Below, piece after piece: positions 12,085 through 63,824 of a stretch of DNA of 64,000 nt; position 1 is the first letter of the stretch, and each line of letters begins with the position of its first letter. Made by a program: the position numbers and the translations under genes. This DNA is from Sipunculus nudus (lineage: Eukaryota > Annelida > Sipuncula > Golfingiida > Sipunculidae). Under the pieces are notes generated by a model. The model did no database searches, was not told the origin of the DNA, and was given only the letters and a program-made list of their open reading frames with translations. The stretch spans positions 74,074,426-74,138,425 of the forward strand of contig CM049309.1 of assembly GCA_026874595.1 (NCBI GenBank), written 5' to 3'.

Positions 12085-12585
12085 CATGAAGCATTGTTTT
12101 TCAAAAATCCTATGTTGGTATGATAAAGAAAGTTTACCCAGGGAGTGAAGAGCTACTTCTATAAAAGCAGCATAGATAAAACTTGTGTAACAAAGAGACT
12201 TATTCTTTACTGTGTCAGGTGATATAGGTCACTATTATTTGGCCTGAGATGATGTACCAATGGTATTCAACAAAGAAACGTGGATTCCCATATGGAGAAT
12301 ATCCTCTGATTAGTGTTTACCTAAGCACACATGCCTTACTACATTAAGTTAAGCTATATAAACCCAAACAAAAAATGATTGTTTACTGACTGTAAAAAAA
12401 TATGGTTCGAGCGATCGAATTAATTTATTTTATCTTAATTTTCTGGTCGATGCAATGCGTGGAATTTTGTAAAATTGCCGGAAAAAAACTACAAACATTC
12501 ACATTTAAACTTGAAATGGTGCATATATGAAAACTCGGTCAATTTACCATACATTTAACAAAGCAGGACAAATGAGCAACATTAG
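12085..12585 (+). repeat. Local duplicate R4, copy 2
   Basis: Partner of 10,560-11,096. It ends exactly where the SINE at 12,594 begins. Comparison with copy 1, which continues from GAGCAACATTA without a SINE, marks the junction. Confidence 0.8.
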
Positions 12586-12593
12586 CTAAGACC

Positions 12594-12934
12594 GGCTTCT
12601 GTGGCTCAGGGTTTAGAGCACAAGACTCAAAGCAGGGAGACCGAAAATCTGCCGAGGCGGTGAGATTCTTCACGGTCGGTCCCTACCAAGGGTGAGCTCT
12701 CTGCAGACTTTATGGTAAATCTGTGCCTAATGACTCTGTGTCACATACAAAAGAGCGCACCTTCCGGCGGTTCCTCGGTGTATGGCCCAGTAACTGGGAA
12801 GATAACATACCCAAGGAGCGCAGACGCAGTAGTCACTGGGGCTGGTTAACACAAGGATATAAAAATGGGAGGAAGCGTGTGTCACTCATTAAAAATGTAA
12901 GCGGTTACCTCTAAGAAAAAAAAATAAAAATTAT
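12594..12934 (+). mobile_element. tRNA-derived SINE with 8-bp target-site duplication
   Basis: The element starts with a tRNA-like head: GGCTTCTGTGGCTCAGGG followed by TTTAGAGCA forms a good A box. A degraded B-box region follows about 35 bp later. The body contains the GCCGAGGCGGTGAGAT and GGTTCCTCGGTGTA blocks also present at 1651-1935. The 3' end is A-rich (AAGAAAAAAAAATAAAAA). It is flanked by an identical CTAAGACC at 12,586-12,593 and 12,935-12,942, the target-site duplication expected of LINE-dependent retroposition. It is non-coding and was presumably transcribed by RNA polymerase III. The LINE partner is unknown. Confidence 0.85.
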
Positions 12935-12942
12935 CTAAGACC

Positions 12943-15050
12943 TTATCCTAACCCCTCGAGGTGGAGGTAAAATTTGGAGGTAATCTTGGTCACAGCTTAT
13001 GTGTTTTTATATATGGCTTCCTATACATTGTTATATACGGCGTTTTTTTTTGTTGGTGTCGTGGCCTAGAGCTGTTGTTAGAGGGGGATTACCTGTGAAT
13101 CAAGCTGGTTAACCGTACGAACCTCAAACAGCTATTATAATAGTTTTCTGAATGCGTATGAAGGTCACCTGGGTTTCACGTACACGAGACTAGATATTAT
13201 ACACAGAAGTCATAAACTGTTCAGGGTTCCAGTTAATTTGTCATGCATTTGGTTTTAACATTTTTATTTCATTTGGATAGATCAAATAGCCTAATATGAG
13301 TTCTTTCTATTTTTTTAGTTGTGAGTTGCACGATCAAACCTTATCAAAGATATCATACTATATCTTCATTTAATAATAGAATAATCCCAAGTTAGATGAA
13401 TTATTATAACATTCATTTTATCTTTTTATCACTGATGTACGAATTATGTTAGCACTATATATGACTGTATGTATATTAAATATTATCCGATCCATATGCC
13501 AAAAGTTAGCATTGGTTATTCATGAAAGAATAATTATAATATGGAAAGTGTATACTCTCCAGTTTTCAACAAATTTGATTTGATACATTTTTTTAAAAAT
13601 GTATCAATTAATTTTATTTAATTTCTAACAAATAAGAAAACTGGATAACTGAGAACACTTTAGACCTTTCAGTTCAGATGGTCCTGAAATATGAACTTAC
13701 TAGCACATAAAAAACCGTCCGTAAGCTGTGAAGTATAAGCTCAACTACCAAACATGAGCAATGAATACAAAAATTCGAAGACTGGTAAGTGGTGATGAGA
13801 CAAATGAAAGCATATTGCCACATGTTAGTTCCATAATATCTGACGGTAGAGGCACTAATCTTTAATACGCATTTCTTTTGTGGTTAAGTGAAGTTGGTGT
13901 TGAAGTGATGAGAACGATACAAAGTATGTCCCAAGGGGGTCCATTTTCCATATTTTATCATAAATCTGAGGAATTTTACATTATTTCGCAGCTAAATCGA
14001 TCAGAAACTGCGATAATGTAACTATCTTTTCGAATTGAAAATCCAGGCAAGGGTCCAACTCGGACCATTGATATGCTGTCCAGCACGAAGTGCGAAGGCA
14101 AGAACGGTACGTAGTTCGCTACTTTATGTAATATAACCGTATGCTCATTATGCTATACCAAAACAAAAAGGATCTTTTAGTTTTGATTTTAATGAATGAT
14201 AGTTCTTTTATATTGTTTTCTCTGCATTATATTTCTTTGTATTTCACATATGAAGATGGTGTTTACATTTGGTTTTAAAATAAGAAAGAGTGTATCACTT
14301 TGGGATAAACAAAGACAGCGCTATACATGCGGGACAATAATGTACTCTAATTGTCTAACTTAGAGGATGTCTGAAGCTTCTTCCTCTAAGTTGTAGTTCA
14401 GGCGAGAACAAACGTAATTTTGTAACAAAATCTCAGGATTTTTACTAGGTCAAAATATGTCTATTATCCGGGGAATGGTGAGCGCTTCCTATTCCGCTTC
14501 CTGGAAACGCTTACGTATGTCATAAGTAAACATCGATATTACCAACGGCAACGGCATATTTCCAAGTATAGTGCTTTGGCGTTGCGATTTTCTTTCATTT
14601 CTACAGCCATACTGCTTCTAGGCTTAATGTGCTTAACGTCATTATAGGTCCGTAACAATCATGACCCGCGCGACCTTAAAACCATTCTGTCCCTACATAC
14701 GGCCCAGCACCCGCGTCGTTTCGCCTCTTACAATACCACGACTTATCGGTATCTTGCCAGTCAATAAACGGAGCTAACGTGAGATTTATCCAGGCGTCCT
14801 CCGAAGCCACGTATTTAGGAAGAGTCCATTCTCAGCATGGGGTCGTTTATGGCCAAATCTGGATCCGCTTGATATTTCCTGAATAGATATTTCATTTTCC
14901 ATCAAGACTGTATTATGTATTTTGATCAACTTGTCCTTTTACACTTAGCTGATACTATTATAAAATATTTTGCTTATTTCGACGGAGAATTTGTCACCGT
15001 CCCCCCCCCTTCCTAAAATCATGGATCCGCTGCCTTACTCTCTGAGAAGT
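12943..15050. other. Non-coding, nothing recognised
   Basis: No conserved coding segment or paired repeat. A short C run at about 15,001-15,010 is followed by a GGATCCGCTGCC motif that resembles the ends of GGATCCGC-type TIR elements elsewhere in the window (34,459; 50,866), but I found no partner end. Confidence 0.5.
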
Positions 15051-15054
15051 AAAA

Positions 15055-15715
15055 AAGACATATACGGATTAAATTCAGCTACTAATGAACCTAGTAAAAG
15101 GTTCTCTCTAAGCCGCTGATATGTCTTTATTTATCCACTTACACACAAAAAAAATACATATAAGATTCAACAGCTAATAAATCAACGTAAAAAAAAATTT
15201 AAAAGTGCCCCTTGGTCATTTACTGCCGCCCTTCCAAAGAAAATCAATGATCCTCCCCGTCTTCTACGACAAAACAATACAAAAATATGCATATCGAACT
15301 CGGTTGCTAATGAAGCATTCAACGAGGAATGGAAAGCATACTTTAAGTGAGTTATCTTTTAAAAACGCAAGAACAACAGAAATAGAGAAAACGCGTGGGA
15401 TAATGAGCAAAAACACAGTCAATCTGAGACCTTTGCAGATAATCCACGTTGAGAGCGTCGTCATGCTAGGGTGTGGGCGAAGGCTGTTTTATTAGATTCC
15501 ATTCCCCGTCCCTCGCTGATTTATTAGCTATACACGCCTTCACCTGAAGGATAGACGGCGACACTTAATTAACGATTTGTCGCATGGTTTCTTCTGACGG
15601 TCACATCTGTGATCTTCTTTTCAAAAGAACGTCTTATAATCCTAAAACTCGTATTTCCCTTGGTCCTCGCTTCCATGGAGGAAGACCGGGTGTTCCCTGA
15701 CATTTGTGCTATGGG
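15055..15715 (+). repeat. Local duplicate R5, copy 2
   Basis: Partner of 11,225-11,895. It is mostly collinear, lacks the (CA)n expansion and diverges downstream of about 15,715. Confidence 0.8.
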
Positions 15716-16119
15716 CGTAAAAGACGTCAGAGATCTTGATAATACACAGACGTGGACCATGAAGCATTGTTACAATTTTCAAGTAATTCCACAAGCACAA
15801 CGTTTGTTTGAATATATAATCAAAATGTGAACCATGGATATTTTACATTTAGATTTTGTAATATTCTTAAACCAATTTGAATGCAGATGGTGGAAGCTTT
15901 TATCGACCTCTGGTGGAATGTATTGTAAAGATGTGATTTTGGGGAAATACAAACGCAATAGAGGAAAAGCAAAAGCCGCCAAAATAATACAAACACAGTC
16001 AACAAAACAGCTGGCAGCAAGTAAGACGAATTATTGTTTTACAGAGGACGTTTTGCTACCTTCCCCCATATGCAACCAAACAACTTAGGTTACATAGTTT
16101 GTTAGTATTGGCATGTAGC

Positions 16120-24288: not shown

Positions 24289-24661
24289 TACTACTCGAGA
24301 TGGCGCTGTTCGAGTAAAACGCAGATGAGACCGGCTCCGTAGAAATATTAGGAATGTGAGTTAAAACTATGTTTGTTTGTAGAATTTATAAGGCTATACC
24401 ATGTTTAAAGCTCTTTTACATACATGTTAAAAAGGCTAAAGGCTAAATAATTATATCATTGCCAATATTGTACATTTTCAGAGGTGTTAAATGTACTCTG
24501 TAACTGATCGTATTATGTAGGTCAAGGTCTCCATTATGGATACACTGTGTAAACAAACTAATGGCAACACAGATAGCAGGAAAGTCTGTCCAAAAGAAAA
24601 GATTTCTCAGTGACTCTTCTGGCGGCGGAGGTTTGAACACTCTTACAATAAACGCTCTAAT

Positions 24662-25484
24662 ATGGCTAATTTTGACTCTTCTGAAGATTATCCATTGGCA
24701 AATCTGAATGTTAAAGACAAAAAGCAGGATATTGAACCTGCCCTCTTCCCTGATGATGTTGAGAGGTTCACAAAACTACTGAGTGCTGCCCTGAGCTCTG
24801 AAACTATTAGGTCATCCTTGAAAGGCATTGTTGATGCCGCGGTGGAACATAGGCTTAGAAACTATGAAAGTAAGATAGATGGACTCTTGGAAACGGTGTG
24901 TCAGTTAGAGAAAAAGATAAATGAGTTGGAAGAAGGACTTGAGAAACATGAACAATATTCTAGACGGAACTCTATCAGAATTATAAATCCTTGGCCAGAA
25001 AATAAGGATGAGGACACAGATAGTTTTATTATAGACTTGGCCAGAAACCACTTGAATGTTGATATTCAGCCGGGGGACATCGAGAGGTCTCACCGAGTCG
25101 GTCGCCCTGCGCCTACAGGTGAATCCCGTCAAATCCTGGTCAAGTTTGTGTCGCACAGGACAAAACGCGTCATAATGAAAGCAAAGTCACGCTTAAAAAA
25201 TGGCAGGTGATACGACAAAAGGGGTTTACATAAATGAAGACTTAACCAAAATAAGGTTTGCCATGTTTAATAACGCTTTGAGTCTGAAACGAGAAAACGT
25301 TATTTCGGATTGTTGGGCAGCTGACGGAACAGTGTGTGTCAAAGACGGGCGAAACAAGGTTCACAAGTTCATTAGGGCGGGGGATTACTATTCTTTGGCA
25401 GAGGCGACAAAACAAAACGCACCAAGATCGTACTCTGACACAACTGCGATGACGCCACCTATGACGTCTACACCAAAAACGTAA
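24662..25484 (+). pseudogene. LINE ORF1 protein (L1-type RNA-binding chaperone), frameshifted
   Basis: ORF1p of L1-type elements trimerises by a coiled coil and binds the element RNA. Here the first frame (24,662-25,210, 182 codons) has an acidic N-terminus, a heptad-rich stretch at about residues 70-100 (ETVCQLEKKINELEEGLEKH), an RRM-like segment beginning RRNSIRIINPWP, and the conserved DIERSHRVG motif near residue 140. The C-terminal domain continues in another frame (25,200-25,484) with YINEDLTKIRFAMFNNA. The switch lies in an A-run at about 25,194-25,199 (TTAAAAAATGG), so one base gained or lost explains it. Combined length would be near 275 residues, normal for this family. A programmed frameshift at this A-run cannot be excluded but is less likely than decay. 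Confidence 0.85.
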
Positions 25485-26140
25485 AAAAAAATAAATAAAT
25501 ATTACTGAAGTATGTTTATTCCTTTGACAGGATTTTTTTCACATTGTTTAAAAATGTGTATAATGTGGTTAACATTTTCAATTAACTTTATTTGTTGATG
25601 AATAAATAGGTTTATTATTGATATATGACAAAAGCACTTCGCTAGTATTACTGGGAGACTGATACATTATGCGGAGCCGGTCTAGTCTGTTCTGTTTCTT
25701 TTTTTCTGCGATTTTCAAAAAATACTACGAGTATAAAATTCTTTATATCATTTTTGGTTATAACTCAAACGAATACAATTTTTTGGCTATAAATCGAATA
25801 TCCGCAAGCATTTAGCATATATTTAATTTACTGCTAAAAACTTGCATTTCTCGAACAGCGCCAAAAAGCTTCCTTTTTTTCGGTTCATATATGAATTTTA
25901 TTTTAATTTTCTTTTATTGTTATGTTGTCAAGCCGTATGATTTAGTTAGCATGTCAGGTTCGGGGTATATGTGTCGGGATAAGCTCAGTTTAAGCATAGT
26001 TATAGTTTATATAGAGTCATTTGATAAAAGTGGCGACGTGTATGTTGTTATAACTTGGTTTAAAGTAAAGATCAGGAACAAAGTCTATCGGATGAAATAT
26101 ACATGCACGAGGAGAAACAATCGACTACCTATATTCAATT
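25485..26140 (+). other. Long spacer between LINE ORF1 and ORF2
   Basis: About 650 bp without LINE coding similarity, longer than usual for L1/Tx1 elements. It contains, in inverted orientation, motifs also found at the 5' end of the LINE region: CTCGAACAGCGCCA (25,852-25,865) against TGGCGCTGTTCGAG (24,302-24,315), and GGAGCCGGTCT (25,672-25,682) against AGACCGGCTCC (24,329-24,339). A second insertion or an internal rearrangement is likely. Confidence 0.5.
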
Positions 26141-26149
26141 CAATTTTTC

Positions 26150-29100
26150 GGTAATAACAATAAATGTAAGAGGCTTTGGTAAAAGTAAGAAAAGAAATCA
26201 AATATACAATTGGTTATCAAATGAAAAAATTGCCAATAGTATTATATTTTTGCAGGAAACACACAGTACAGAAAATGTGGAAACGCAATGGAGGAAAGAA
26301 TGGCCAGGAGCTATTTTCTTTTCTTACGGCACCAATTTAGCGAGAGGGGTCATGATTCTTGTCGGGATAAATATTGACTTGGAGGCGATAACTTAACATA
26401 CCGATACAAATGGCCGATATATTTTAATAAAAGCAGTGATAAATGGTAAAAAATCTCTTTTTTTAAACACGTACGCTCCAAATACTGAGAAAATCTCGAG
26501 TATACTAGAAATACTTACTCTTGATCCGGACACTAATATAATGTGGGGAGGAGATTTTAACCTATGTTTAAGTCATATTGATGCAGACGAAGCTAATTTT
26601 AAGTCAAAACCTAAATCAGTAAACCTATTAAAACCTATTTTATCTATATATGGATTAATCGATCTTTGGAGAATAAGACACCCAGGAATGTCACAGTATA
26701 CATGGTCAAAAACGCCTATAAGACAACGTAGACTGGATTATCTCTTTGTTGGAGCTAAGCTAAATGCACATATAAACAATATTTCGATAAAACCAGTAAT
26801 CTTAACTGACCATTCGGCCGTCATCTGCTCGGTAGGTTCAGTGTCGAGCCAAACCCACGGTCCTTCCTATTGGAAACTAAATGTTACATTACTGAATGAC
26901 CCATTAATATTACTAATAAAAAACAATGTAAAGCACCTGAGGACAAAGCAAAAGAAATATTTAAACGATCAGCAATGGTGGGAATATTTAAAATTCAAAA
27001 TTAGAGAAATTTCTATTAAATATTCAAAGGAAAAAAAGAGGAAAAAAAGATCGGATATCATTTATCTCGAAGGAAATTAGCGGGAGCCGAAAACAATCTA
27101 AATAGAAATGACCAGTCTAGCCAAAGTTTATATGATATATCTAAACAAAAACTTGAAGAATATTATGCAAGTGTCACAGACGGACAAATTATTAGATCAA
27201 GAGTCCAATGGTTTGAAGAAGGAGAACGTTGTACTAAATATTTCTTCAATTTAGAAAAAAGAAACAAAAATAAATCAATTATAAAGAAATTAATTGCAAA
27301 GGGAAAAGAGTTAAGCTCACCGAAAGAAATTATGGATGAGATCAAATCCTTTTACCAAACGAAATATTCACGGACGACTAACATAAGTGATTTAGATTGC
27401 TCAAATGTTTTGTCCAAACTAAAGATTCCGACATTATCAGATACGGAGGCTCGTATTTGCGATGCCGCAATTGATAAAAAGGATATACTAGAAGCGTAAA
27501 AGGAAATGAAAAGTAATAAAACACCAGGAAACGATGGTCTACCTAAAGAATTCTACATAACCTTTTTTGATCTTCTGGTTGATGACTTATTATCCTGTTT
27601 GAACAGCAGTATTTCTAACGGATCATTAACAGCCAGTCAAAGACACGCTGTAATTAAACTCATAGAAAAAAGGGAAAAGATGACAGATATATGTCGTCAT
27701 GGAGACCAATAAGTTTGGTTAATGTCGATGTTAAAATTGTAAGTAAAATATTAGTTAAGAGATTACAGAAAATTTTACCAAAACTAATTGGCGAGGAACA
27801 GACTGCATTTATAAAAAACAGGAAAATATCAGATACCTCTCATCTTATTAATGATATATTAGATTACTCTTTGAATTTTAGGTATAAAGCAATTATGTTA
27901 GCCATTGATTTTGCAGCGGCTTTCGATTCGATTGATTATGTGTCTTATATACCACCCTTAAAAGTTTTGGATTTGGTGATGGTTTTCTCTCCTGGATACG
28001 AATATTACACACAAATTTGGAAAGCTGTGTCATTAATAATGGATATACAACGGGTTATTTTAACTTAGAAAGAGGTACCCGTCAGGGAGACCCTTTAGCT
28101 CCATACCTTTTCTTGCTTGTTATTGAAGTCCTTGCCATAGCAGTTCGTCAATCAGATAAAGTGAGGGGAATTCGTATTAACAACTGCGAAATTAAATTGA
28201 GTTTATTTGCTGATGATACCACTTTTTTTCTGAAAGACCTTGATTCTATGAGTGCTGTTCTTGAATTATTGGAGGAGTTCGGCAATGTGTCCTCAGTTAA
28301 AATAAATTATGAGAAAAGTGAGTATGCACACATTGGCAGCAGACAGACCAAACAAAATAAAACCATTGGTATTAAATATGTGGATCTATATAATGAGGCA
28401 ATAAAAATACTTGGAATATATTATACATATAACGAGAAATTGTCATATGAATTAAATCTTGAAAGTGTGTATGAGAAGATGAAAACGGTATTAAACTCCT
28501 GGAGAAAGAGAACCCTAACAATTTTTGGAAGAAACACACTGTTAAAATCAGTGGGTATAACCAAGATTTTGTACGTTCTTAATATTATAGAGCCACCGAA
28601 AGAATTCATTAAAAAAATCAAAAGTTGCATCGTTGAATTTATATGGTATGGAAGAAAACCAAAAATTAAATACGAAGTATTAATCAGTGATATGGAAAGT
28701 GGAGGTTTAAAATTACCTGATATAGAAACAATATTAGATAGTCAGAGAATTATGTGGATTTGCAGATTAAAGAATGTAACAAACACAAAATTTGCTACGA
28801 TCCCAAACTTGTATTTCAGAAATATCGGGGGCATAGATAATATTGGTGCAAATTTCGATCCGGGATTAATTGAAGGAAAAATGACAAAATTTTATTGTCA
28901 TTATTTGAAGTCATGGGCTTATTTTACTTCAAAAAGCCCAAAAGGAGTTGTAGATATATGTTTACAGCAGCTATGGAACAATAAATATATTCAGGTTGGA
29001 GGTAAGACGGTTTATAATAAGTTTCTGAATGACCTTGGTATAAAATATATATTCCAATTGTTTAAAAAAAATGGAACTAAACGACGATTAGCAGATATTT

Positions 29101-29888
29101 TACCGCCTGGCTCAAAATATTACAATAAATGTTATATTCACTATCTTTCTATTATGCATGCGATACCGACGGAATGGAAATGTGTGATAAAGAATAACAA
29201 AATACCAGACAAAGCGGATGAAATTGATGTTATGGGAAGTTTTCTTTCCTTAGAAGAAGTGGTTTTAGATGCCTGTAATTTGGATTTTAAATGGCTGTAT
29301 GGAAAACTGTGCCAAAAAAAGGTGTGTGATCCACCAAATAAAGAAAAAGTAGAAACTATGTTGAACCAAAACACCACGTGGAAACAAGCAGTAAATCATA
29401 TTTATTATGTCTCGCTTGATATGTATTTAAGGCAATTCCAGTACAGGATTCTTCATAACATTTTATCGGTAAACGAAAAATTGTATAAATGGAAAATAAT
29501 AGACACAAATAAATGCTCGTATTGTTCAAATGAAGAAGAAACTATTACACATATATTTTGTGAATGCACTGTGAGTCTTTAGTTCTATAAACAGATATCT
29601 GAATGGGCTGTAGATACTGGAGTTGTGATGCCAGATATGTGCAAGTCGTTAATTTATACAGGTTGTGCAGAACATTATGAGATTAAAAGCCTTATTGACA
29701 CGTTGCTATTAATCTATAAGTTTGTAATATTCAACTATCGAAATGACATGAACACTCCAACCTTACAATTGTTTCAGAAGCATGTGCAAAAAATGGAACT
29801 GTTTGAGCGTAAGGTGGCAGAGAACAATAATGTTATGCAAAATCATCTGTATAAATGGAACAAAATCCTTTTAAACCAAATCACTTGA
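26150..29888 (+). pseudogene. LINE ORF2: endonuclease-reverse transcriptase, multiply broken
   Basis: ORF2 nicks the target DNA and reverse transcribes the element RNA. All endonuclease motifs are visible: NVRG, LQETH, YAPN, GGDFN, RLDYLF and DHSAV (26,165-26,825). The reverse transcriptase follows with TPGNDGLPKEFY, SWRPISLVN, DFAAAFDS (motif A), GTRQGDPLAPYLF (motif B) and FADD (motif C, about 28,210). A C-terminal Cys/His cluster is CSYC...HIFCEC (about 29,515-29,570). Inactivating lesions: an in-frame TAA at 26,394, a frame change near 27,065, TAA at 27,497, frame changes near 27,685 and 27,965, and TAG at 29,580. Beyond the last stop the same frame stays open to 29,888. Length without lesions would be near 1,245 residues, normal for L1-type ORF2. 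No RNase H domain is visible. Confidence 0.92.
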
Positions 29889-48711: not shown

Positions 48712-49830
48712 TAGGCTGTGGGAGGATTAAAGTTACAAAACTTCATCTTTTAAAGGTACAGAAACATTTACCAAAATATGCATTTTATACCACGCTATTG
48801 GTTTATTCGGGCTGAATACAAAAGTTTCTCAGTAAGAAAAAACCCCGGAACACGGACTTTCTGTCTATAATTAATCTGGGTTTTTTTTCCGTTGTTATGA
48901 TTTTTGGTGTGAGTGAACATAGTCCACGTGTGTCTGTTTACAATACCTGGTCTGCGTGACCAGAGTACGATCTGCGCAGGCGCGACAACTCCCAAACAAG
49001 GAGAAGAAGCATGAAAGAAGAAACAGCCGTCGGGAGATTGTAAAATCTTGTATGTGAAGTTACGCGGTGGCGCACTCGCTATGATGTATGTGTGTTGTGC
49101 CACAGATACCGCCCGCTGCAGGCTTCCTTCCATTTCTGCACAGTATTACCGTTTTTAACTTAATATTGACAGGTACCATTATATTTTATGGAGGGCACAC
49201 GTTATTTAATGTATATCTAACATATACCTGGTATGTAATTCGGTCCCTATAATGGGAATGGTTTTACTGGATACAGATATTTGACTCTGTGTAACAATGG
49301 TAACATCAGGCCAGTTTTACAGATTATATAACAATAACTCTTTTCTCAAAGTTGAATAACCTTTCTGTAATTTCAAGAGGTAGTAATCAATCCAAACATC
49401 ATTGAAATCTGCTGCATTTTCTGCATGAATTCTTATTTTACACGATATCGACACTCACACCATTTTTCGTGATATTCTAGACTAGATGGTGTGTGATTTG
49501 TGCGCGGCGGTGTTATATCATGTCACAGAGCCAGCTGAGTACTGTTCCGGGAAGAATTTCGGCCTCGTGGCAATTAATTTTGCCCAGTCCAGGCTGGTTG
49601 GAAATCTTAAAGGTGCCCATTACCTACCTTAAGAAAAAGAATTTATGTGATTTCTGGCTTCCTCTGTGTATATATTAATGATCTAAGGGTCATACTGGTT
49701 GTGAAAAGTTCTTATAAGGCCTTCTGGAAGGATGTATGAACTTGTTTATCAACAACATGTTTGTAAACAAAGCAATGTTGACAAAAGGGAAAAACATGTA
49801 ACCTAGGGTGGTAGGTTGCATGTATGGGAA
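48712..49830. other. Non-coding flank of the large TIR element
   Basis: No coding family or repeat partner was seen. It ends in the TA dinucleotide at 49,831-49,832 that precedes the terminal inverted repeat. Confidence 0.5.
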
Positions 49831-49832
49831 TA

Positions 49833-50512
49833 AACCGTCAGCCCAGGGCCTTGAGTGTAGACGAATGAGGTACCGATATTTACATACTGGAGCATATTCG
49901 GGGTCCCCTAAGACTTACAGAAATGGTAGTCTGCCGAGTAACCCCAGTTGCGTATGTCCGGGGGGACCCCCAAAGGCACCTAAAAATAGGTCTAAAATAG
50001 ATGGCAACGGTACCAATTAATTTTAACACCATGGTGTCTTCACTGATGAATGAGAACCAAAAACGCAAAACGACAGACATTTTCACCGCTGTTATAGCCC
50101 CGCCAGACCCCCCAAAGGGGCCTAAAAAATTTGGCCTAGAGTAGATGAGACAGGTACCAGGAAAAAAATTATGCCAACTGATCAGGCTCAGTCCACGGTG
50201 CATAAAATGGGTTACTTCAGAATTTTTTTCTGTTGTATAAGGGGTACCAGACGACCCCAAAAATATGTATCCCAACTGCCCCTAGGCCATGTGATACAGC
50301 TATGCCAGCCTAAATGTAACAGCTACCAGTTGAAACCAGGTTTACATGACAGTGTAACTCTTTCGAAATACAAAATGGCTAATAACAGATCCCCCCCCCC
50401 CCCCCATTGTATTTGCTCTGCCACCCCCCCCCCCCCCCCCCCCCCCCGAAAATGACCTTGTGATGCATTTAGACTAGCTCAGATATTCCAGGTACCAAAT
50501 GAAATAAGCCTT
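49833..50512 (+). repeat. Left long terminal inverted repeat
   Basis: About 680 bp matching the reverse complement of 61,086-61,734 with substitutions and indels, including the two C tracts at 50,391-50,405 and 50,425-50,447. Internally it consists of related segments: GGTACC occurs at 49,869, 50,009, 50,153, 50,243 and 50,491, and the block ACCCCC-AAAGG-CCTAAAA...TAGATG...GGTACC appears twice (49,966-50,014 and 50,108-50,158). Confidence 0.88.
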
Positions 50513-50823
50513 TGATATGTAAATGTTTTCATAATTATTGTCATCATTACTGTCCGATTTTGTGCAGTGTTAACAACGAATAAGCAAAAGAAAGGAAGGA
50601 GACAAAAGCAGCAATGGGGGAGGGGGGGGGCAGATTTTTGGTGTGTCCACCATAGCAGCTGATGAGGCGTTTATCGATGTAAATAGATGGTGTTTGGTTT
50701 CGTCATAAATACATGGAGCAGACTTATCATATGGCCTAAAGTTCGTTAATTTAACAGTGTAACATTAATTGCATAATAATAATGTAAAGTTGCTCTGTGT
50801 TCTGTTATTTTATCGAGGTCTTC

Positions 50824-51808
50824 CAGGGGCGTAGCCAGGATTGAGTGAGGGGAGGGGGCCATGATCAGTGGCGGATCCAGAATTTCGAAAACGGGGGGGG
50901 GGCACTAATATGCATGTATGGGTACTATGAAAACTGTTATATATACGTGTATCTGTATGTATATATATTATTATTATTAGTATAACTATACGTTATATAT
51001 TTTAGTGTATGAAAATGTTTATTTTATTCAATTATGAACCATGATTTATTAAGGTTAGTTTCAGGTACATGGGGAGGGTATGGGAGGGGGTGTCCCCCTC
51101 CCATATTGGGAAATTTTTTTAATATGTAATGTAAAGATGACATTTGAGGCAATTTTTACAAAAAACTGAGGATTTCCTTTACCCGAAAAAACAGTTCCCT
51201 CATGTCTTTGCGTAAGAATCAAACTGTAGAGAGGTTCAATATGTAATATTTATATTTCTTCAAAATTATGATATAAAAATAAAACATGTTAAAATCAATT
51301 GATCAAAGGCGCATTTACGTTTATAACTTGCAAAATATTATATTTTAAATGTAATCTCGGAGTGAAATAACTGATATGTTGATGTCTTATGTTAAATTTT
51401 GTTAAACTAAATTTTACCGGGATCTCGAGCACACATCGCGAGTAAGGTACCAACAGAGGATCGAGCCATGAGATTGTCCACGTCCACGGTCAACCCAAAC
51501 TAGGGCCTGGTGCTCTGCAGTTGTTCTGCAGCTGTTAATAAATATCCTCATCCTCAACTAATGAATTTGCAGAGTAATAAAATGCATATAACTTAAATAA
51601 AAATCTTAGAATCTCAAAATCTAATTGCTAATTAATAAAAAGAAATATGAAAAACGAAAATAAACCACGAAAATTGGGAAATTAGATTAAATGAAAGATA
51701 TTGCAGCTCAACGGGGGTCCGCGCGTCCAAGGCGCCCTCTCTGGACCCGCTACTGATACAACGGGGTGGGGCATGGCCCCCTGCGGCCCCCCTCTGGCTA
51801 CGCCCCTG
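50824..51808. mobile_element. CAGGGGCGTAGCCAG-type TIR element, 5-bp target duplication
   Basis: The ends CAGGGGCGTAGCCAG and CTGGCTACGCCCCTG are perfect 15-bp inverted repeats. TCTTC flanks both sides (50,819-50,823 and 51,809-51,813). It contains a second TIR element. Non-coding. The ends resemble widespread non-autonomous animal DNA transposons, but the 5-bp duplication does not fit the 8 bp of hAT. Confidence 0.85.
50866..51755. mobile_element. CAGTGGCGGATCCAG-type TIR element nested in the previous one
   Basis: Left end CAGTGGCGGATCCAG and right end (reverse complemented) CAGTAGCGGGTCCAG lie inside the outer element. The flanks do not form an obvious target duplication. A G-rich and a C-rich segment follow the left end. 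The interior is AT-rich with no coding capacity. Confidence 0.7.
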
Positions 51809-51813
51809 TCTTC

Positions 51814-53020
51814 AGTGTTAAAATACATCAGCGGACGGGATGTTATTTTTTCAGCCATAAATTACCGGCACTGTGAATTTACAGGGAAAGTTGTTAAAAT
51901 ACAGCCAAAATTTATACACCACTGATATTATTGCATGTTAGATGCATTATCTTGCAAGTCATGCCAGTTTTTTTCAGCTTCTGCAATGTGTTTTTCATCA
52001 TGTTGCAACTTTGTACCTATGAAAATCATCAGGTAAGCTACATGTAAGGAATATTTAACCCTGCGTGAAGCGAGGGTTAGCCTATTGTTTTCCCTCGATT
52101 CTGTATGTGTGTGAGGGTGTGTGCGTGTGTGTTTCGGACGGTATCTAGAGACGGTATAACGGGTGCTATTATATAGGCTAGTATTGTGAAAGCATTTACG
52201 AAGTTCGAATTTGGTGTAAATCCAAGCATAAATAACCCCCGAATGAGTGTTTTCATTGGTTTTTATAGCACATTTTGGCCACTTGCGCTGGTGCGCGTGA
52301 CCATACGACCACCTGTGGTGTGGGATCCGCTACGTCATAGTCGACAAGGACGTCACGCTATGCGACTAGTCATTTCTTATACAAGTATTTCGCTATGTGC
52401 TGTTCTTATAAATGCCAAGTGTAGGCCTGTCCCTAACTTGTTACTGCCGTCTTCCATTAAAACAGAATCGCGCTGGCCTACTGTTTTATTTCAAGCACAG
52501 CTTAATATTGTGTGTTTCTTCTGGATGTTGGAATTGACAAGTTTCTGAATGCTGCCGAGGTTATACTTAATTGAAAATGGAAATTAAATCAAGGCATTCC
52601 ATCCCAAATGGTAAGCAAATACAATAATAAAATGTCAGAATTGCGTACTGTTTATTGCAATTACATTTCAAATGTTTAAAAGTAATTCAAGGCTCCGATA
52701 TGCATGTTAATATCAGGTATTCCTCATCCTTGTAACGGACAGTAATACCAACAAAGAAAGAAAACAGATTCATGATGAGCATAGCAGCTCGAGGTATGGT
52801 TAGGTGGGACTATCGGTTGGGGCCGGGCCCCTCCTGCAAAGAGCTCTTGGATATACGTCCATGTACAAATTAGTCAACATATTCTCATCGTGGGGGGGAG
52901 ATGACTTGGGGGACGCCCCCACCCCCACATGTTTGAATTCCCCTCACCTATAAGGCCCGAAGCCTTAAGTTTCTACGCACCTGTGTTTTAATCTTTGGAC
53001 CGAATGCAGGTCATATTGTT
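51814..53020. other. 5' flank of the nuclease gene inside the large element
   Basis: AT-rich sequence with a (TG)n-like stretch at 52,105-52,135 and C/G-rich words at 52,890-52,925. Upstream exons or a promoter should lie here, but I cannot identify them. A 120-codon frame (52,186-52,548) shows no family resemblance. Confidence 0.45.
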
Positions 53021-53024
53021 GCAG

Positions 53025-53085
53025 GAATCTGATGCTGGAAGTAGCAGTGCTAAAGGCAGAGGGATCATGCAACCTGCATCAACTG
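53025..53085 (+). pseudogene. Small putative exon (ESDAGSSA-type)
   Basis: It is preceded by TTGTTGCAG and followed by GTGAGT. It encodes ESDAGSSAKGRG..., closely similar to the start of the next exon (ETDDTGSSAQ at 53,309), so the two look like an exon duplication. Function unknown. Inferred from splice-like borders only. Confidence 0.5.
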
Positions 53086-56000
53086 GTGAGTAGGGCTATA
53101 TCAGGTGGTCAGTATCAGGAGTTTCATAGCTTCGTCAATTGCTTCACAAGCATAGCCTCAGATCCCAGATTATGAAAAAAATTAAGAGAGTTTGTGAAAT
53201 TTGAACAATATTTTAGTTTATTCATGGTTCAGCTCCTCGTTGGATCCGACACCGAAACACTACTAGGCCTCTTGAATCTGGGAAAAAATATATGCCTTAT
53301 TGTTTCAGGAAACTGATGACACGGGTAGCAGTGCCCAGACCCCACAAGGCGAACCTGTGAGATCATGCATCATTTGCAACACCAGTGATGGGGCCAATCT
53401 GAGGCAATTTGACAATAAAACTTGGGCATCTGTGAAAAAAGCAGCAGTTTAGACTGCATGCAGCTAAAGACTGATAAATATCAAAAGGTGACCTCGGAGA
53501 TCAATTTGCAGACAGGCCATTGTGAAGCTTTTTACAATTCCAAACCGTGCTACAAGAATTCACTGCAGTTGAACGACAAACCGGTCACAGCAAGGATGAA
53601 CCTCCACTGAAAAAGCCAGAGACAAGACGAAGGAGTTCGATTCCTCAAGATGATGACAGGGGTCTGCTGAAAGGTTCCAGTATTTTCTGTGGAAAACCAG
53701 GAAAACTATTAGTCAGAAACCAGAGACCTTATCAGAGTGTCTCACTATTGTAGGTTGTCGTAGAATCATAGCAGGGGCACCTCACAGTTCAAATGAGCGG
53801 ATAAAAGGTTTAGTTGATATTGATATAATCGCAAAGGAGGCTCAATATCACAAGTCATTTCGGCGTGTCTATTTTAAAGAGATTGAGCATGTTGAGCAAC
53901 CCCAAAGAAAGCACAGGCTACCAACAGGCAGTTACATACAGACTGCTTCAGCACATTTGCTACATTTATTGAAGCAGAGGTGATTAAAAATGGTCAGGTA
54001 ATGCTGGTGTCATCTTTCTTTGAGATGTACAAGGCAAGGTTTATTGCCAATGGTGGTACAGAAGAGGACATCGAGAGCTTCACGTCGCAGGCTTAGATGA
54101 GAAAAGTGCAGGAAAGATTTAATGAAAAAATATCTACCACCCTTTTTGACATCCGCAAAGGCAATTTTTTGTACAGTTCAGCATTATCTGAGGATACTGC
54201 AAGACAGCGCCTGCAGGGTGAAAAAGAGAAGCACCAAACTGTCATACAATGTGCTGCACTGTATCTAAGGAACCAAATCATACAGATGCCCCAATGGCAA
54301 ACACCGACTCCAACCTCTGCTGAGACTTTGAAAGCCTGCTCACCTGAACTCCCTGACGACCTACAGTTGTTTTTTCAGGACTCTTCTTTGTAGCCTACAC
54401 AGGCCAACTGGTGATACTTACAAGGATGGCGTGGAAAGGAGAGTGAAGGCAATGGCATCAGATGCAGTGTTTAATGCATCACGAGGGTCAGTGCTTCCAA
54501 GGAAGCAAACGGTCCTTGGCTGGGGGATTGGAACACTCACTGGATCCAGCCTCATTCCGCCTATTCTGAATCGTATGGGATATACCCTTAGTTACGACGA
54601 AGTGAGGGCATAAGAAACAGAATTTGCCTTTACGACTCAGGAGTCTGAAAAGGATGCCCCCGATGGTATCGATTTGAGCCCTGATCTTGGAACAGGACTC
54701 GCTTGGATTAATTATGACGTAAACCTAGATACCTTGGATGGCAAAAATACTCTGCATGCCACAGTTGGGATTTGCTACCAAAACAAGACCGAAGCAAATG
54801 AGAATAGTCTCCACAGATGGAGCAGAGGGAGAAACAGGCGACAATTCGACGGACAAGCTCGAAAGATTGCCCCTATGCACCGTCAGCTTAGCAGAGCAAA
54901 GTTTGATGTTCCAGCATCACACATCACCCATTTGCAGCTGTTACTCAACGCATTATTGATTTCTATTGGTTACTGCCATCGCGGGAAATGCCACAGCCAC
55001 TATATGTTGGGTTTATCTCACAATTCGTCCAAGATGACCTTCCAATTCAGAAGATAACATATATGGATCCGATTCCAGCTTCTCTACTAGTAACGATGCA
55101 GGTTGCCTGTGAAACAAATCAGGATTTCATAGTTGTTACATACGACCACGCAGTTGCCCTGAAGGCCTACTCCATTCAGTCACTTGAAGCTCCTTTGTTT
55201 GATCGTCTGTTGATACTGTTGGGGAACTTCCATCTGGAGCTGGCCTTTTATGGAGCTGTTGGAACATACCTCAATGAGTCAGGGGCTGATCACCTTCTCA
55301 CTGAATGCGAAATACTTGCAGAAGGCTCACTGAATGGGTTCATACGAGGGAAACACTATAATCGCTGTTGCAGAGTTCACGAAATTCTGGCTCTTGTGAT
55401 GGAGCGGAAGCTGTATGACAGCTTCTTGACAACGCTTCCACGGGAGAGGCAAGATGTACTTACAACATGGATGAAAGATGTACCATAAGAACGCAGTGAA
55501 ATAGAACCATTCCTAGAAAGCCATCCGATATTCAGAGAGCACATGGAACAATATGAAAAGTTTTTCGCTAATGCTCTTCAGGGTAAATGGGTCCAACAGC
55601 ACAATACTGGTGTGGATACATCTATATGATCAATCGGGTACACCGAAGTCTTATGCGAGCTTTGAGGATGAATGATATTGAGAGTTACATCACCCTTCTT
55701 CCAACAGTAATTGATGTATTCTTTGGGCTCAACCAACCAAATTACGCTCGTTGGGGTGTACTGTTCCTTACAAAACTTGAAACTGCGCACCCGAGGATTC
55801 GTTCGGTACTAGAGAAAGCCCTGGCATTTTCAATTCGAAGAACGCCAAAGGCCTTTTCTAGGACAGCAATTGACCTAACACTGGAGCAAAGCGTAAATAG
55901 AGATGTGGCCTCACCAATGAAGGGAATTGTGGGATTCCAGAACTCCCCCAATGCAATCCGTCGCTGGTGTATGACATCAACCTAGCGAGGAATGTCAGTG

Positions 56001-56720
56001 ACCGAGCTGCGACACATAACAGGACTCTCAGCTGAGGAGCAGCAAAGAGCGCAGCTTCGACCATGGCAAATCAAGAAAGATAACCACCAAATTCAGACTC
56101 TGCTAAAAGCTGTGAGTGAATTATGCGACCCATTCTCTGAACCTGCCATCTCGTCATCCTGCCTGTTGAAAATTGCCACAGGAAAAGGAGCCGCCTCCAA
56201 CACACAGGAGTACCTCAATGATTCTCTATGTACTGGTCATGAGCTGCAGATGGAGTGCGCTGAGGACAGCTCCAGGCTACTAAAGCCAATAAAACGGAGA
56301 AAAGTGGACAAATTTCACTAGCTACACCATTACACAGATGTTCCTCTATCCATCGCACATCCTGATGGTTCAATCATGAAAACCGAAAAGAGCAAGCTTT
56401 TGCAGAAGCTCGAGTCAATGCAAGACGGGATGGAAAACTTGTCTCATATTGATGCAAGTTTGATTGATGATGGACTACTGCTTCATTCCTATCTTTCAGC
56501 GATTGGCCAAATATCCTACGTATATCTTGCAAGAGACCTTTTGAACCTATTTGTGCAACACCTTTGGCAACGGAAAGGTGAGTGGCAGAAAGACCATTAT
56601 GGTCCTATCCTTCGGAAAACGACACTTATTTTATCACATGGCGGCAACTGCCTTCGCATTTCTTTTGATGAAGTTGGCAAGAAGATGACTGTTGATCACC
56701 CATACGTGTTGCAAGGAATC

Positions 56721-57000
56721 CACGAAGAGGCAGATACCTTTCTGGCATTCCATGCTGCTTCTGAGACTGGACGCCTGCTCATCCGAGCCTCAGACACGGA
56801 TGTAATAGTCATAATCATAGGTATGCTTTGGCGGAACAAGCTGGACGGAATACCATTGAAGCCTATAATAAGGAATATGGGTCTGGCAACAGAAAAAGAT
56901 ATATTGATGTAACCCGCATTGTCTTGGTTTAGAGACAAAACAAGTTGGCTTAGCTGCGGCATTGCCAGGCTTATATGCTTTCACCGGCTGTGACTTCACA
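56721..57000 (+). other. XPG/FEN1-like nuclease core motifs, copy A
   Basis: E-E-A-D at 56,724-56,735, D-T-D at 56,793-56,801 and G-C-D at 56,986-56,994 correspond to the EAEA, DxD and GxD acidic clusters that bind metal ions in XPG-I/FEN1-type (PIN-like) nucleases. The motifs lie on either side of a frameshift near 56,880. Confidence 0.7.
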
Positions 57001-57222
57001 GCGTCGTTCTACAGAAAAGGAAAAATCAAACCGTATGAACTCCTAGAAAATGACAGCGATGGAACCTTCGTCAATTTCTTTCGAAGCATGTCATCGCGGG
57101 ACGAACTCAAACAAGAGATTGCCGAGATCTACATATGTTCCTTGTATGGGATGAATGGAGTTAAGGATGTTAATGAGGCAAGGTTCAAGAAACTTCAAGA
57201 ACTGACAGGAAAAATCAGAAAG

Positions 57223-57389
57223 GTGAGATTATAAAAAGAAATAAGTAGTGACAAGAAATATATTGTATAATACGGAATAATTCATGAAGCAATGAAATAT
57301 AAGCAGTGAAATATAAAAATCATTCTTCACATGATTAACATTCAAGTAATTGTACTTACTGTTGCAGCCGATTTGTTCTGTCATTTCAG
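57223..57389 (+). other. Intron in the last part of the nuclease gene, copy A
   Basis: 167 bp with GTGAGA donor after ATCAGAAAG and TTTCAG acceptor before GATAACCAG. The reading frame continues in phase 0 across it. An identical intron is in copy B (about 60,155-60,321). Confidence 0.75.
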
Positions 57390-58049
57390 GATAACCAGAT
57401 GGCCAACATAAAGAAAGTTGACTGCGCGCTACTTCCCCCCTGTGGGAAGACCTTGAAGAATAAGATCCAACGGGCTCATTACGTGAGCATTATCTGGGGT
57501 AATGCAGACACCTCAGAGCAAACTCAAGAGCTAGACCCACTCAAGTATGGATGGAAGGCAGAAAACGGTAATTATGTACCAGATTGGTTTCCTTGGCCTG
57601 CTGAACCAGAAAAACTTTTCCCTGATAATCATGAGAAGGAAACTGTCCCAGATGACACTGACAGCGGGTCCGATTCCGAACCCGAATGGAGCGATGATTC
57701 TGATAGCATGGATAGTGACAGCGAGGCCTGAAATCACTTGACTAACAAGGACAGTGCCTACTTATTGCAATATGAAAGGTTAGATCCAAACAACACTTTC
57801 ACCATTCGGCTAAAATAAAAGATTTTTTCCATGCTTCTCGCTCAAATTTTCATTTTCTGTGTGATGACATGGATGACACATTGATACATTATTAGCATAT
57901 GATAGGGAGTTTGCAGTTACTTACCGACTACAACTTCAACTCCGGTACAAGGTTTATCATACTCTTCAGTCAACACCGTCCTCAGCCGTCTGTGAATTCA
58001 GTTCCATAATTGAAGTGTAAGTCGGAAAGTTCCGCAAACTGCCTTAACC

Positions 58050-60982
58050 AGGTTTAGTTGATATTGATATAATCGCAAAGGAGGCTCAATATCACAAGTC
58101 ATTTCGGCGTGTCTATTTTAAAGAGATTGAGCATGTTGAGCAACCCCAAAGAAATCACAGGCTACCAACAGGCAGTTACATACAGACTGCTTCAGCACAT
58201 TTGCTACATTTATTGAAGCAGAGGTGATTAAAAATGGTCAGGTAATGCTGGTGTCATCTTTCTTTGAGATGTACAAGGCAAGGTTTATTGCCAATTTGAA
58301 ATTCTGTTTATTGAAATTCTGGCTCTTGTGATGGAGCGGAAGCTGTATGACAGCTTCTTGACAACGCTTCCACGGGAGAGGCAAGATGTACTTACAACAT
58401 GGATGAAAGATGTACCATAAGAACGCAGTGAAATAGAACCATTCCTAGAAAGCCATCCGATATTCAGAGAGCACATGGAACAATATGAAAAGTTTTTCGC
58501 TAATGCTCTTCAGGGTAAATGGGTCCAACAGCACAATACTGGTGTGGATACATCTATATGATCAATCGGGTACACCGAAGTCTTATGCGAGCTTTGAGGA
58601 TGAATGATATTGAGAGTTACATCACCCTTCTTCCAACAGTAATTGATGTATTCTTTGGGCTCAACCAACCAAATTACGCTCGTTGGGGTGTACTGTTCCT
58701 TACAAAACTTGAAACTGCGCACCCGAGGATTCGTTCGGTACTAGAGAAAGCCCTGGCATTTTCAATTCGAAGAACGCCAAAGGCCTTTTCTAGGACAGCA
58801 ATTGACCTAACACTGGAGCAAAGCGTAAATAGAGATGTGGCCTCACCAATGAAGGGAATTGTGGGATTCCAGAACTCCCCCAATGCAATCCGTCGCTGGT
58901 GTATGACATCAACCTAGCGAGGAATGTCAGTGACCGAGCTGCGACACATAACAGGACTCTCAGCTGAGGAGCAGCAAAGAGCGCAGCTTCGACCATGGCA
59001 AATCAAGAAAGATAACCACCAAATTCAGACTCTGCTAAAAGCTGTGAGTGAATTATGCGACCCATTCTCTGAACCTGCCATCTCGTCATCCTGCCTGTTG
59101 AAAATTGCCACAGGAAAAGGAGCCGCCTCCAACACACAGGAGTACCTCAATGATTCTCTATGTACTGGTCATGAGCTGCAGATGGAGTGCGCTGAGGACA
59201 GCTCCAGGCTACTAAAGCCAATAAAACGGAGAAAAGTGGACAAATTTCACTAGCTACACCATTACACAGATGTTCCTCTATCCATCGCACATCCTGATGG
59301 TTCAATCATGAAAACCGAAAAGAGCAAGCTTTTGCAGAAGCTCGAGTCAATGCAAGACGGGATGGAAAACTTGTCTCATATTGATGCAAGTTTGATTGAT
59401 GATGGACTACTGCTTCATTCCTATCTTTCAGCGATTGGCCAAATATCCTACGTATATCTTGCAAGAGACCTTTTGAACCTATTTGTGCAACACCTTTGGC
59501 AACGGAAAGGTGAGTGGCAGAAAGACCATTATGGTCCTATCCTTCGGAAAACGACACTTATTTTATCACATGGCGGCAACTGCCTTCGCATTTCTTTTGA
59601 TGAAGTTGGCAAGAAGATGACTGTTGATCACCCATACGTGTTGCAAGGAATCCACGAAGAGGCAGATACCTTTCTGGCATTCCATGCTGCTTCTGAGACT
59701 GGACGCCTGCTCATCCGAGCCTCAGACACGGATGTAATAGTCATAATCATAGGTATGCTTTGGCGGAACAAGCTGGACGGAATACCATTGAAGCCTATAA
59801 TAAGGAATATGGGTCTGGCAACAGAAAAAGATATATTGATGTAACCCGCATTGTCTTGGTTTAGAGACAAAACAAGTTGGCTTAGCTGCGGCATTGCCAG
59901 GCTTATATGCTTTCACCGGCTGTGACTTCACAGCGTCGTTCTACAGAAAAGGAAAAATCAAACCGTATGAACTCCTAGAAAATGACAGCGATGGAACCTT
60001 CGTCAATTTCTTTCGAAGCATGTCATCGCGGGACGAACTCAAACAAGAGATTGCCGAGATCTACATATGTTCCTTGTATGGGATGAATGGAGTTAAGGAT
60101 GTTAATGTGGCAAGGTTCAAGAAACTTCAAGAACTGACAGGAAAAATCAGAAAGGTGAGATTATAAAAAGAAATAAGTAGTGACAAGAAATATATTGTAT
60201 AATACGGAATAATTCATGAAGCAATGAAATATAAGCAGTGAAATATAAAAATCATTCTTCACATGATTAACATTCAAGTAATTGTACTTACTGTTGCAGC
60301 CGATTTGTTCTGTCATTTCAGGATAACCAGATGGCCAACATAAAGAAAGTTGACTGCGCGCTACTTCCCCCTGTGGGAAGACCTTGAAGAATAAGATCCA
60401 ACGGGCTCATTACGTGAGCATTATCTGGGGTAATGCAGACACCTCAGAGCAAACTCAGGAGCTAGACCCACTCAAGTATGGATGGAAGGCAGAAAACGGT
60501 AATTATGTACCAGATTGGTTTCCTTGGCCTGCTGAACCAGAAAAACTTTTCCCTGATAATCATGAGAAGGAAACTGTCCCAGATGACACTGACAGCGGGT
60601 CCCATTCCGAACCCGAATGGAGCGATGATTCTGATAGCATGGATAGTGACAGCGAGGCCTGAAATCACTTGACTAACAAGGACAGTGCCTACTTATTGCA
60701 ATATGAAAGGTTAGATCCAAACAACACTTTCACCATTCGGCTAAAATAAAAGATTTTTTCCATGCTTCTCGCTCAAATTTTCATTTTCTGTGTGATGACA
60801 TGGATGACACATTGATACATTATTAGCATATGATAGGGAGTTTGCAGTTACTTACCGACTACAACTTCAACTCCGGTACAAGGTTTATCATACTCTTCAG
60901 TCAACACCGTCCTCAGCCGTCTGTGAATTCAGTTCCATAATTGAAGTGTAAGTCGGAAAGTTCCGCAAACTGCCTTAACCAG
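58050..60982 (+). repeat. Tandem duplication unit B (internally deleted)
   Basis: Nearly identical to unit A except for a 1,329-bp deletion (A positions 54,052-55,380) replaced by a 17-bp filler at 58,296-58,312, and few point differences: G/T at 53,914/58,155, A/T at 57,177/60,109, A/G at about 57,527/60,458, G/C at 57,671/60,602, and loss of one C in the run at 57,435/60,366. Confidence 0.93.
58313..60662 (+). pseudogene. XPG/FEN1-like nuclease gene, copy B (5' truncated)
   Basis: Corresponds to copy A from 55,381 to the end, with the same motifs: NYARWGVLFLTKL, DLTLEQSVN, HEEAD (59,653), SDTDV (59,722), GCDFT (59,918), intron and acidic tail. It carries the same stops at 58,418, 58,915 and 59,251 and the same frame change near 59,810. 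One additional C lost near 60,366 shifts the last exon. Substitutions change E to V at 60,109 and D to H at 60,602. AATAAA is at 60,745. It has no N-terminal zinc-binding part and cannot encode the full protein. Confidence 0.8.
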
Positions 60983-61085
60983 AATGCAGGATCTACTTTA
61001 GGCGGTCATGTCCGGTAGGACCAATGTAATGGGGAAATATTATGTCTCTAGCATTTCGCATATCCCAAGGTGTGCTTTGTTATTT
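60983..61085. other. Unique spacer between unit B and the right inverted repeat
   Basis: About 100 bp, starting AATGCAGGATC, shared with no other part of the window. Confidence 0.5.
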
Positions 61086-61734
61086 AAGGCTTATTTCATT
61101 TGGTACCTGGAATATCTGAGCTAGTCTAATTGCACCACAAGGTCATTTTCGGGGGGTCTGGCAGAGCAAATACAATGGAGGAAATCTGTCATTAGCCATT
61201 TTGAATTTCGAAAGAGTTACACTGTCATGTAAACCTGGTTTTAACTGGTATCTGTTATATTTAGGCTGGCAAAGCTGTACCAAATGGCCTAGGGGCAGTT
61301 GGGATACATATTTTCGGGGTCGTCTGGCACCCCTTATACAACAGAATAAAATTCTGAAGTAACCCGTTTTATGCACCGTGGATTGAGCCTGATCAGTTGG
61401 CATAATTTTTTCTTGGTACCTGTATCATCTACTCTAGGCCAAATTTTAGGCCCCTTTGGGGGGTCTGGCGGGGCCATAACAACGGTGAAAATATCTGTCG
61501 TTTGCGTTTTTGTTCCCATTCATCAGTGAAGACACCATTTTGACAAAATTAATTGGCACCATTGCCATCTATTTTAGACCTTTTTGTAGGGGGTCCCCCG
61601 GATATACGAAATGGGGGGGGGGGGGGTACTCGGCAGACTACCATTTCTGTAAGTCTTAGGGGACCCCGAATATGTTCCAGTATGCAAATATTGGTACCTC
61701 GTTCGTCTACACTCAAGGCCCTGGGCTGACGGTC
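61086..61734 (-). repeat. Right long terminal inverted repeat
   Basis: Inverted partner of 49,833-50,512. GGTACC is intact at 61,102, 61,415 and 61,693, and present with one change (GGCACC) at about 61,330 and 61,555. A G run lies at about 61,612-61,626, at a place without such a run in the left repeat. Confidence 0.88.
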
Positions 61735-61736
61735 TA

Positions 61737-63452
61737 GAAGGTAGAAAAATCACTTGTTGCAAAATACCATTTGCAAAACTCTAGCTTATCTGGCTTATCT
61801 GCCAGATGACCTTGTTGAATTTGTTTTGATTATTTTAACGGGCCCCTACATTTTATAAACACGTTGATATTAACAAAACAAGCAGCCTGTGTACGGTAAT
61901 ATCCACGTAATATCCTATTTTTATAAAAGCTCCAAGGGATTACCTTAAGTTATCAAGGTCAGATAGCTGATTGGGCCCCTTTAAGAAAACGCTAGAATTG
62001 TCAGGTATTATTGTTGTCTTACATTATTTATATTACGACGGACATAATACGTTCACAATCGCTAGATTTATAAAGGTAACTAAAATCTAAAACAAAAAGG
62101 TCTGACTAATCATGAAAAACTGGACGACGTGTCGTTTTTATATCTGAAATAAATAAGGCTTGCAAGGTTGCGTGCTGCAAGGCTTGAAATGCTATGCATA
62201 TATGCATGTATTTCTTCTCTAGAGATATATTTAAACACAGGATCTTCTTGTATATATGAAATATATTCGATCTACTATCCTATAAATATACTAATGTGAA
62301 TATGTATTTATGTATACATCCAATTTAAAGGGTTTATTCTGTACATCTGTTTGTAGGATATACGACGCACTTTTTCTGACGTTACTTTGTATATCTCAAT
62401 ACATTTCTGTACCATAAATAAATGGATACATGTTCTTTGTAATCATCATACTGACATGTACATCCGTTTAGGACACGTTTAAACTGGCATATTTCCTTTT
62501 AATTACATTGCATCCTTTCACTGCAGGGTGATATTTTTACAATATTTCCCTAAACAGTCACAAGAGAAAACAAATATCACAGACATATCATTTTTAAATT
62601 AGACATTTAGGGCATACAAAAATTTATAGTTACACTGATCCTTTTTTTTCTTAATTGGATGGGAAATGGACTCAATTTAGTGTTGAGTATATACACCATT
62701 TCAGTCACTGAAGCACATTTTTGTATTTCCGCGGGAAGCTGGCAAAATTCTATGTAATGTGTCTCGGCCGGTAAAGAAAAATAAGAAGATAAAAATAAAT
62801 AAATCGCCCGCTTGCACCATATCCCCCTACCCCCAGAGTCCGTAGAACAATAATGGTTTTGAATGCCTTAAATATCCAGTCGGGCCGAACTTAAGACGTG
62901 TATTAACGTGACGTGACGGTATATTGAACTTATATGGACATGTCCAAATTACCAAAATAATGAGAAACACACGTTAGAGGAAAAGGATATAGCTTGATGT
63001 CGGTATATACTTAAATATTAAGCCCAAAACACACAGCAGCTGTTTCATAACTGCGTCTGCTAGCAGGTATTTATAAGGCGGTATATATGTTTATAAATCG
63101 TCTGGATCTCTGATTAAGCTCGCTTTTGGGGCTCCCACGGGACATCCGTAACGCAAGAGCGGCAGTGTTTGTCGTGTTTATCTCTATTAATAATACAGTA
63201 TACAATCCAGGGATATATTCGTATATTCAGGTCATCCGCATGACATCGCGCACCGTCCGCTGTAGTCTGCATATGCTGATTGTGATATTAGCCATTCAGT
63301 TTGATGGAGGTCATGTTTTCACAGTGCATGTCTGTTCATCCCATCATCTGTCAGCCCGTTTATATTTTTTTTGTTAGATCGTGTTATACTAAAGCTGACT
63401 GAAGCTTCGATGCACCATTAATTGTTCTGGTTATACATCTAGAAAACTAATC
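61737..63452. other. Non-coding right flank, nothing recognised
   Basis: No coding family, RNA gene or repeat partner was seen on either strand. Confidence 0.5.
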
Positions 63453-63824
63453 GGCTGTTCAGTGATACTAGATCACACGGTTGTCTAGTGATACTAGAAC
63501 ACACGGTTGTTTAGTGATACTAGAACACACGGCTGTTAAGTGATACTAGAACACATGGCAGTTGAGTGATACTAGAACACACGGCTGCTCAGTAAAACTA
63601 GAACACACGGACGCCCAGTAATACTAGAACACACGGTTACTCAGTGATATTAGAACACCCGGCTGTTAAGTAATACTGGGACACACGGCTGTTAAGTGAT
63701 ACTGGGACACACGGCTGTTAAGTGATACTAGAACACACGACTGTTAAGTGACACAAGAACACACGGCTGTTTAGTGATACTAGAACGCACGGGTGTTAAG
63801 TGATACTGGAAACACGGCTGTGTA
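63453..63824 (+). repeat. 26-bp minisatellite, about 14 copies
   Basis: The unit is GGCTGTTAAGTGATACTAGAACACAC with scattered substitutions. Units are contiguous, with no unique spacers between them. The array gives a long minus-strand frame that is a repeat artefact. Confidence 0.95.

Follow-up and report, generated by a model that had tools for sequence, protein, structure and literature searches.

The 64,000-nucleotide stretch of Sipunculus nudus DNA analysed here, referred to below as the window (assembly GCA_026874595.1, contig CM049309.1, positions 74,074,426 to 74,138,425, forward strand), contains an 11.9-kb transposon at window positions 49831-61736 that carries the broken remains of a gene for a DDE transposase joined to a FEN1/XPG/XRN-type nuclease. 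It is very probably a DNA transposon of Academ type (AcademX-like) that was once autonomous and has since degenerated, a placement made from described features rather than from a comparison with any Academ sequence. The original prediction, made from the letters of the DNA alone, had proposed that an XPG-like nuclease defines an undescribed system here. This proposal is not supported, as the same protein has a DDE domain and Academ/AcademX already combines the two; the element seems to be a new family within a transposon group that is already known, and not an unknown system.

The outer ends of the element are TAAACCGTCAGCCCAGG and TAGACCGTCAGCCCAGG. The left terminal inverted repeat (TIR; 49831-50512, + strand) starts with TAAACCGTCAGCCCAGG and the right TIR (61086-61736, - strand) ends with CTGACGGTCTA; the two arms are 86.8% identical in a gapped alignment, and an ungapped comparison gives 597 matches and 46 mismatches (92.8%). 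The 17-bp end has two sites in the window without a mismatch, and only the same two when up to three mismatches are allowed (100 shuffles at this threshold gave a mean of 0.07 sites, one shuffle having two). These arms are the inverted repeats of about 650-680 bp with matching ends that had been predicted, whilst the ends themselves had been placed at 49833 and 61734, which is within 2 bp but short of the true ends at 49831 and 61736. The TA dinucleotides had been placed outside the ends as flanks: TA lies inside the repeat, and the target-site duplication is GAA, directly outside both ends (49828-49830 on the left and 61737-61739 on the right).

Empty sites were sought with the joined 140+140-bp flanks, for which 40 places were scored among 4,009 first-look candidates; these match at 87-89% identity and 40/40 cross the junction. 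All six of those read continue across the junction with a single G[A/G]A (two have GAA, four GGA), and TA is absent from the junction in each of the six, so the check for empty sites with a short duplication gave a positive answer. Because the empty sites hold a single G[A/G]A and no TA, the host target was a repeat, the duplication is 3 bp and the TA is part of the element. The sequence on either side (window 49690-49830 and 61740-61880) is indeed that of an abundant host repeat, the source of the 4,009 first-look candidates. A TA-target element with a Tc1/mariner-like duplication would fit with the fact that every end listed begins with TA, but it is contradicted by these six sites and by the triplets outside TA, which match in seven of nine copies (see below), and its probability is negligible; membership of Tc1/mariner is refuted for the window copy by the six empty sites.

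A search of the genome (1.43 Gb, 153 contigs) with the left arm gave eight matches from seven candidates, all scored, at three loci; these and other counts of family copies are lower bounds. The copy on C8 is 12,034 bp long, with GTG/GTG flanks and 6.45 kb of foreign sequence inserted in one arm, and the copy on C4 (at 72.57 Mb) is 5,947 bp long and rearranged, with TAT/TAT flanks; the window copy diverges from them by 5.6% and 5.9% of aligned sites, respectively. Every one of the three copies found of the window family encloses the nuclease gene or at least a part of it, which answers the question of whether it accompanies the repeats elsewhere. Had the surroundings of a host repair gene been duplicated locally in inverted orientation, a long inverted repeat enclosing a gene related to repair nucleases would also have resulted, but independent copies with different flanks, on another contig or 1.5 Mb off, together with the empty sites, refute this explanation, which deserves almost no credence. 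The element is thus mobile, as had been suggested, and neither of the outcomes named beforehand as fatal was encountered: no different transposase replaces the gene, and the repeats are not confined to this locus. As a separate observation, the insertion in the C8 TIR (9322-15777 of the joined segments L009+L010) is of foldback type, with ends GGTWTAGGGACATATCGGCCGC, a 9-bp duplication CTCATTCAT and an interior built from tandem repeats of ~305 bp that form two inverted arrays.

The gene lies on the + strand at about 53300-57731. Protein matches place its main coding part, with zinc motifs, a winged-helix-like region, a DDE domain and a nuclease domain, at 53300-57222, followed by a predicted intron (GTGAG...TTTCAG, 57223-57389), across which the P0003 matches continue, and a last coding exon with an acidic C-terminal tail and a stop (57390-57731). 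When read against relatives, the DDE core extends approximately from INYD (DNYD in relatives) to an LEQ motif (54707-55889), its fold having been predicted on relative P0021. The FEN1/XPG/XRN-type nuclease core (56460-56994; fold on relative P0012) contains LIDDG, HEEADT (56721-56738), DTD (56793-56801) and GCD (56986-56994). The predicted nuclease gene, with EEAD, DTD and GCD in place, is enclosed as claimed, but it is broken: alignment rows of the proteins P0010 and P0002 show eight frame changes between 53300 and 57225, and six in-frame stops lie inside the stretches that these two proteins match. About 58 residues are also missing near 56580, around an FDxY motif and including the second nuclease Asp. 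This segment is present in the C4 copy, with frame breaks and a stop, and the C8 copy retains just the end of it and has no FDxY motif; the C8 copy lacks much of the DDE part and the C4 copy the 5' part of the gene. The zinc-type Cys/His motifs, predicted as zinc-binding N-terminal motifs, are conserved in relatives and partly preserved here. The window copy cannot make the transposase-nuclease protein.

The domains are best seen in the longer relatives, which are single proteins of ~1,400-1,700 residues. They have zinc motifs at the N-terminus, a region resembling a winged helix, a transposase domain of DDE/RNase H fold that is predicted to be interrupted by a large helical insertion, and, downstream in the same protein, the C-terminal nuclease. 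For the middle domain of P0021, the first seven structure rows are all DDE transposases, and the fold matches Hermes, ISCth4 and RAG1 with moderate Z; across relatives D333 is invariant and D487 and E733 are nearly so. The C-terminal domain of P0012 is clearly predicted to be a 5' nuclease of the FEN1/XPG/XRN fold, ranked nearer to XRN1/XRN2 than to XPG (8-15% identity, among the rows listed, to XRN1/XRN2, FEN1, EXO1, XPG and GEN1), and its ordered acidic motifs are present in relatives. Both folds are predictions read from VIA-align rows, and that of the C-terminal domain bears out the XPG/PIN-like fold that had been anticipated for the nuclease. With so clear a fold, and with its motifs in every family read, the nuclease might itself be the transposase, in an element that is defined by XPG and has no DDE enzyme; the DDE rows and the conserved D, D and E speak against this, and we regard it as very unlikely.

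Searches by name and by profile were less informative. Pfam gave only weak DUF6589 matches on relatives, NCBIfam with P0003, P0013 and P0026 gave one chance-level match that leaves the protein unnamed, and a profile search of PDB sequences gave two matches (best E 0.2). In viral contigs the protein pattern matched 61 times with none confirmed and the TIR pattern did not match, and in a genome contig collection the protein pattern matched 82 times, again with none confirmed. Named relatives are spread across many invertebrates, in agreement with what had been claimed for the protein family, and 180 related proteins were matched, the 120 listed being mostly uncharacterised. The present reading would explain this large set as transposases to which a 5' nuclease is fused, and suggests that a DDE transposase domain is what the weak DUF6589 matches mark.

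Divergent relatives are present in the same genome. A P0002 protein search gave at least 44 matches (33 of 559 candidates scored) and, beyond the three copies of the window family, revealed families A-D at 25-36% identity. Their ends are TAGTCCATGGGCC (A), TAGTCTATCAGCC (B), TAGACTAGCGGCC on the left and TAGACCTGCGGC on the right (C), and TAGTACATCAGCC on the left and TAGTACTTCAGC on the right (D). Exact 3-bp duplications flank A_C16 (TTT), A_C13 (AAT), C_C15 (TAT) and D_C6 (TAC), and inexact ones flank A_C11 (ATA/ACA) and A_C9 (TTT/TAT). Together with the three copies of the window family, seven of nine copies have an exact 3-bp duplication (chance ~1 in 64 each) and none has an exact 4-bp one; the count leaves out four family B copies, C_C1, C_C16 and D_C17, in which a single end, or a single clear one, was read. 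EEADT, DTD and TGCD occur in this order in at least one copy of each of families A-D, and A_C16 lacks the stretch that carries them in A_C11. For loci L032, L033, L034 and L038 of this search the screen covered inverted ends, and L037, L043 and L044 are near-identical segments. One divergent family B copy (L045 3042-6728, C14:48.7 Mb) has a 1,229-codon open frame from stop to stop, and because of this frame proteins of this type may recently have been active in this genome. Two places with a divergent relative of the gene, L043 (C10:68.73 Mb) and L044 (C10:69.20 Mb), show 99.8% identity across almost the whole of the 10 kb compared, which points to a recent segmental duplication and not to two transpositions.

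A large share of the 11.9 kb of the window copy is secondary. Positions 58050-60982 (+ strand) are a tandem duplication of a ~4.24-kb unit (53806-58049), and since only four differences are found across the shared 2.67 kb, it is either recent or an assembly effect. The second copy has itself lost 54052-55380, where a short templated-looking filler (GAAATTCTG repeated) is seen, as in error-prone gap repair. A nested insertion resembling a miniature inverted-repeat transposable element (50824-51808; ends CAGGGGCGTAGCCAG, 5-bp duplication TCTTC) has its empty site in the C8 and C4 copies; by eye, a second pair of inverted ends seems present within it (~50867 and ~51757). Elsewhere, the window holds a broken non-LTR retrotransposon (24614-29582; assigned by eye), in which an ORF1-like protein with a coiled coil precedes endonuclease and reverse-transcriptase-like open reading frames, and a minisatellite-like array of GTGATACTAGAACACACGG-type units (63439-63821).

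With regard to mechanism, the N-terminal domains may bind the inverted repeats and the DDE domain would cut and join the ends with a 3-bp stagger, whilst the nuclease, acting at the site of excision or insertion, might trim or resolve 5' ends, flaps or hairpins. With its clean ends, its duplications and its empty sites, the element offers a basis for testing the role of the nuclease in transposition. A bolder proposal, that a hAT/RAG-like DDE domain and an XRN-type 5' nuclease form a lineage of their own outside Academ, in which each transposition event involves the nuclease (it might clear 5' ends or hairpins) and both the 3-bp duplication and the conserved 5'-TAG ends are partly determined by it, is improbable.

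The Academ superfamily and its AcademX lineage are credited to Kapitonov and Jurka in 2010 and Kojima in 2020, the latter reportedly giving the AcademX nuclease as XPG-type; no paper in the collection searched covers Academ together with XPG. Academ is listed as a DNA transposon superfamily (PMC4455052) and among the DDD/E superfamilies (PMC9587614), with AcademX linked to a nuclease and to 3- or 4-bp duplications, and AcademH to a helicase and to duplications of 9-10 bp (PMC10045372). The window family resembles AcademX so described in its DDD/E transposase (the fold match and the D/D/E conservation), its nuclease (fold and motifs) and its 3-bp duplication (the exact flanks and the empty sites); since these testable features are all found, and since the comparison is one of descriptions, it is filed as AcademX-like with high but not full confidence. 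A DDE transposase and an XRN/FEN-type nuclease joined independently of Academ, as a separate undescribed superfamily, would accord with this reliance on description, with the rank of the nuclease nearer to XRN1/XRN2 and with the results of Pfam (weak DUF6589 matches) and NCBIfam (no name); it is nevertheless unlikely, as AcademX, in published descriptions, is itself a DDD/E transposase plus nuclease with 3- or 4-bp duplications (PMC10045372; PMC9587614).

Unlike the curated bivalve Academ elements, with a mean of 5,565 bp (PMC10294476), the window copy is 11.9 kb long with TIRs of ~650-680 bp. AcademH, which by description belongs to the same superfamily, was rejected: of the 11 Pfam families that 25 relatives, some of them partial, match at E<=0.1, none is a helicase (the window copy being too broken for a whole scan), and the duplication is 3 bp and not 9-10 bp. 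XRN1/XRN2, FEN1, EXO1, XPG and GEN1 resemble the C-terminal domain in fold and in acidic motifs but serve the host in RNA decay or repair and are not transposon proteins. The closest solved folds to the DDE half are the hAT (Hermes), RAG1/Transib and ISCth4 transposases, which are not known to have a fused 5' nuclease; hAT elements make 8-bp target duplications, and hAT membership was rejected on the 3-bp duplication, no copy of the nine matching at 4 bp. KolobokE, KolobokD and KolobokP are likewise DDD/E transposons with an added nuclease, but these nucleases have other folds, namely lambda-exonuclease type, DEDDh and His-Me (PMC9587614).
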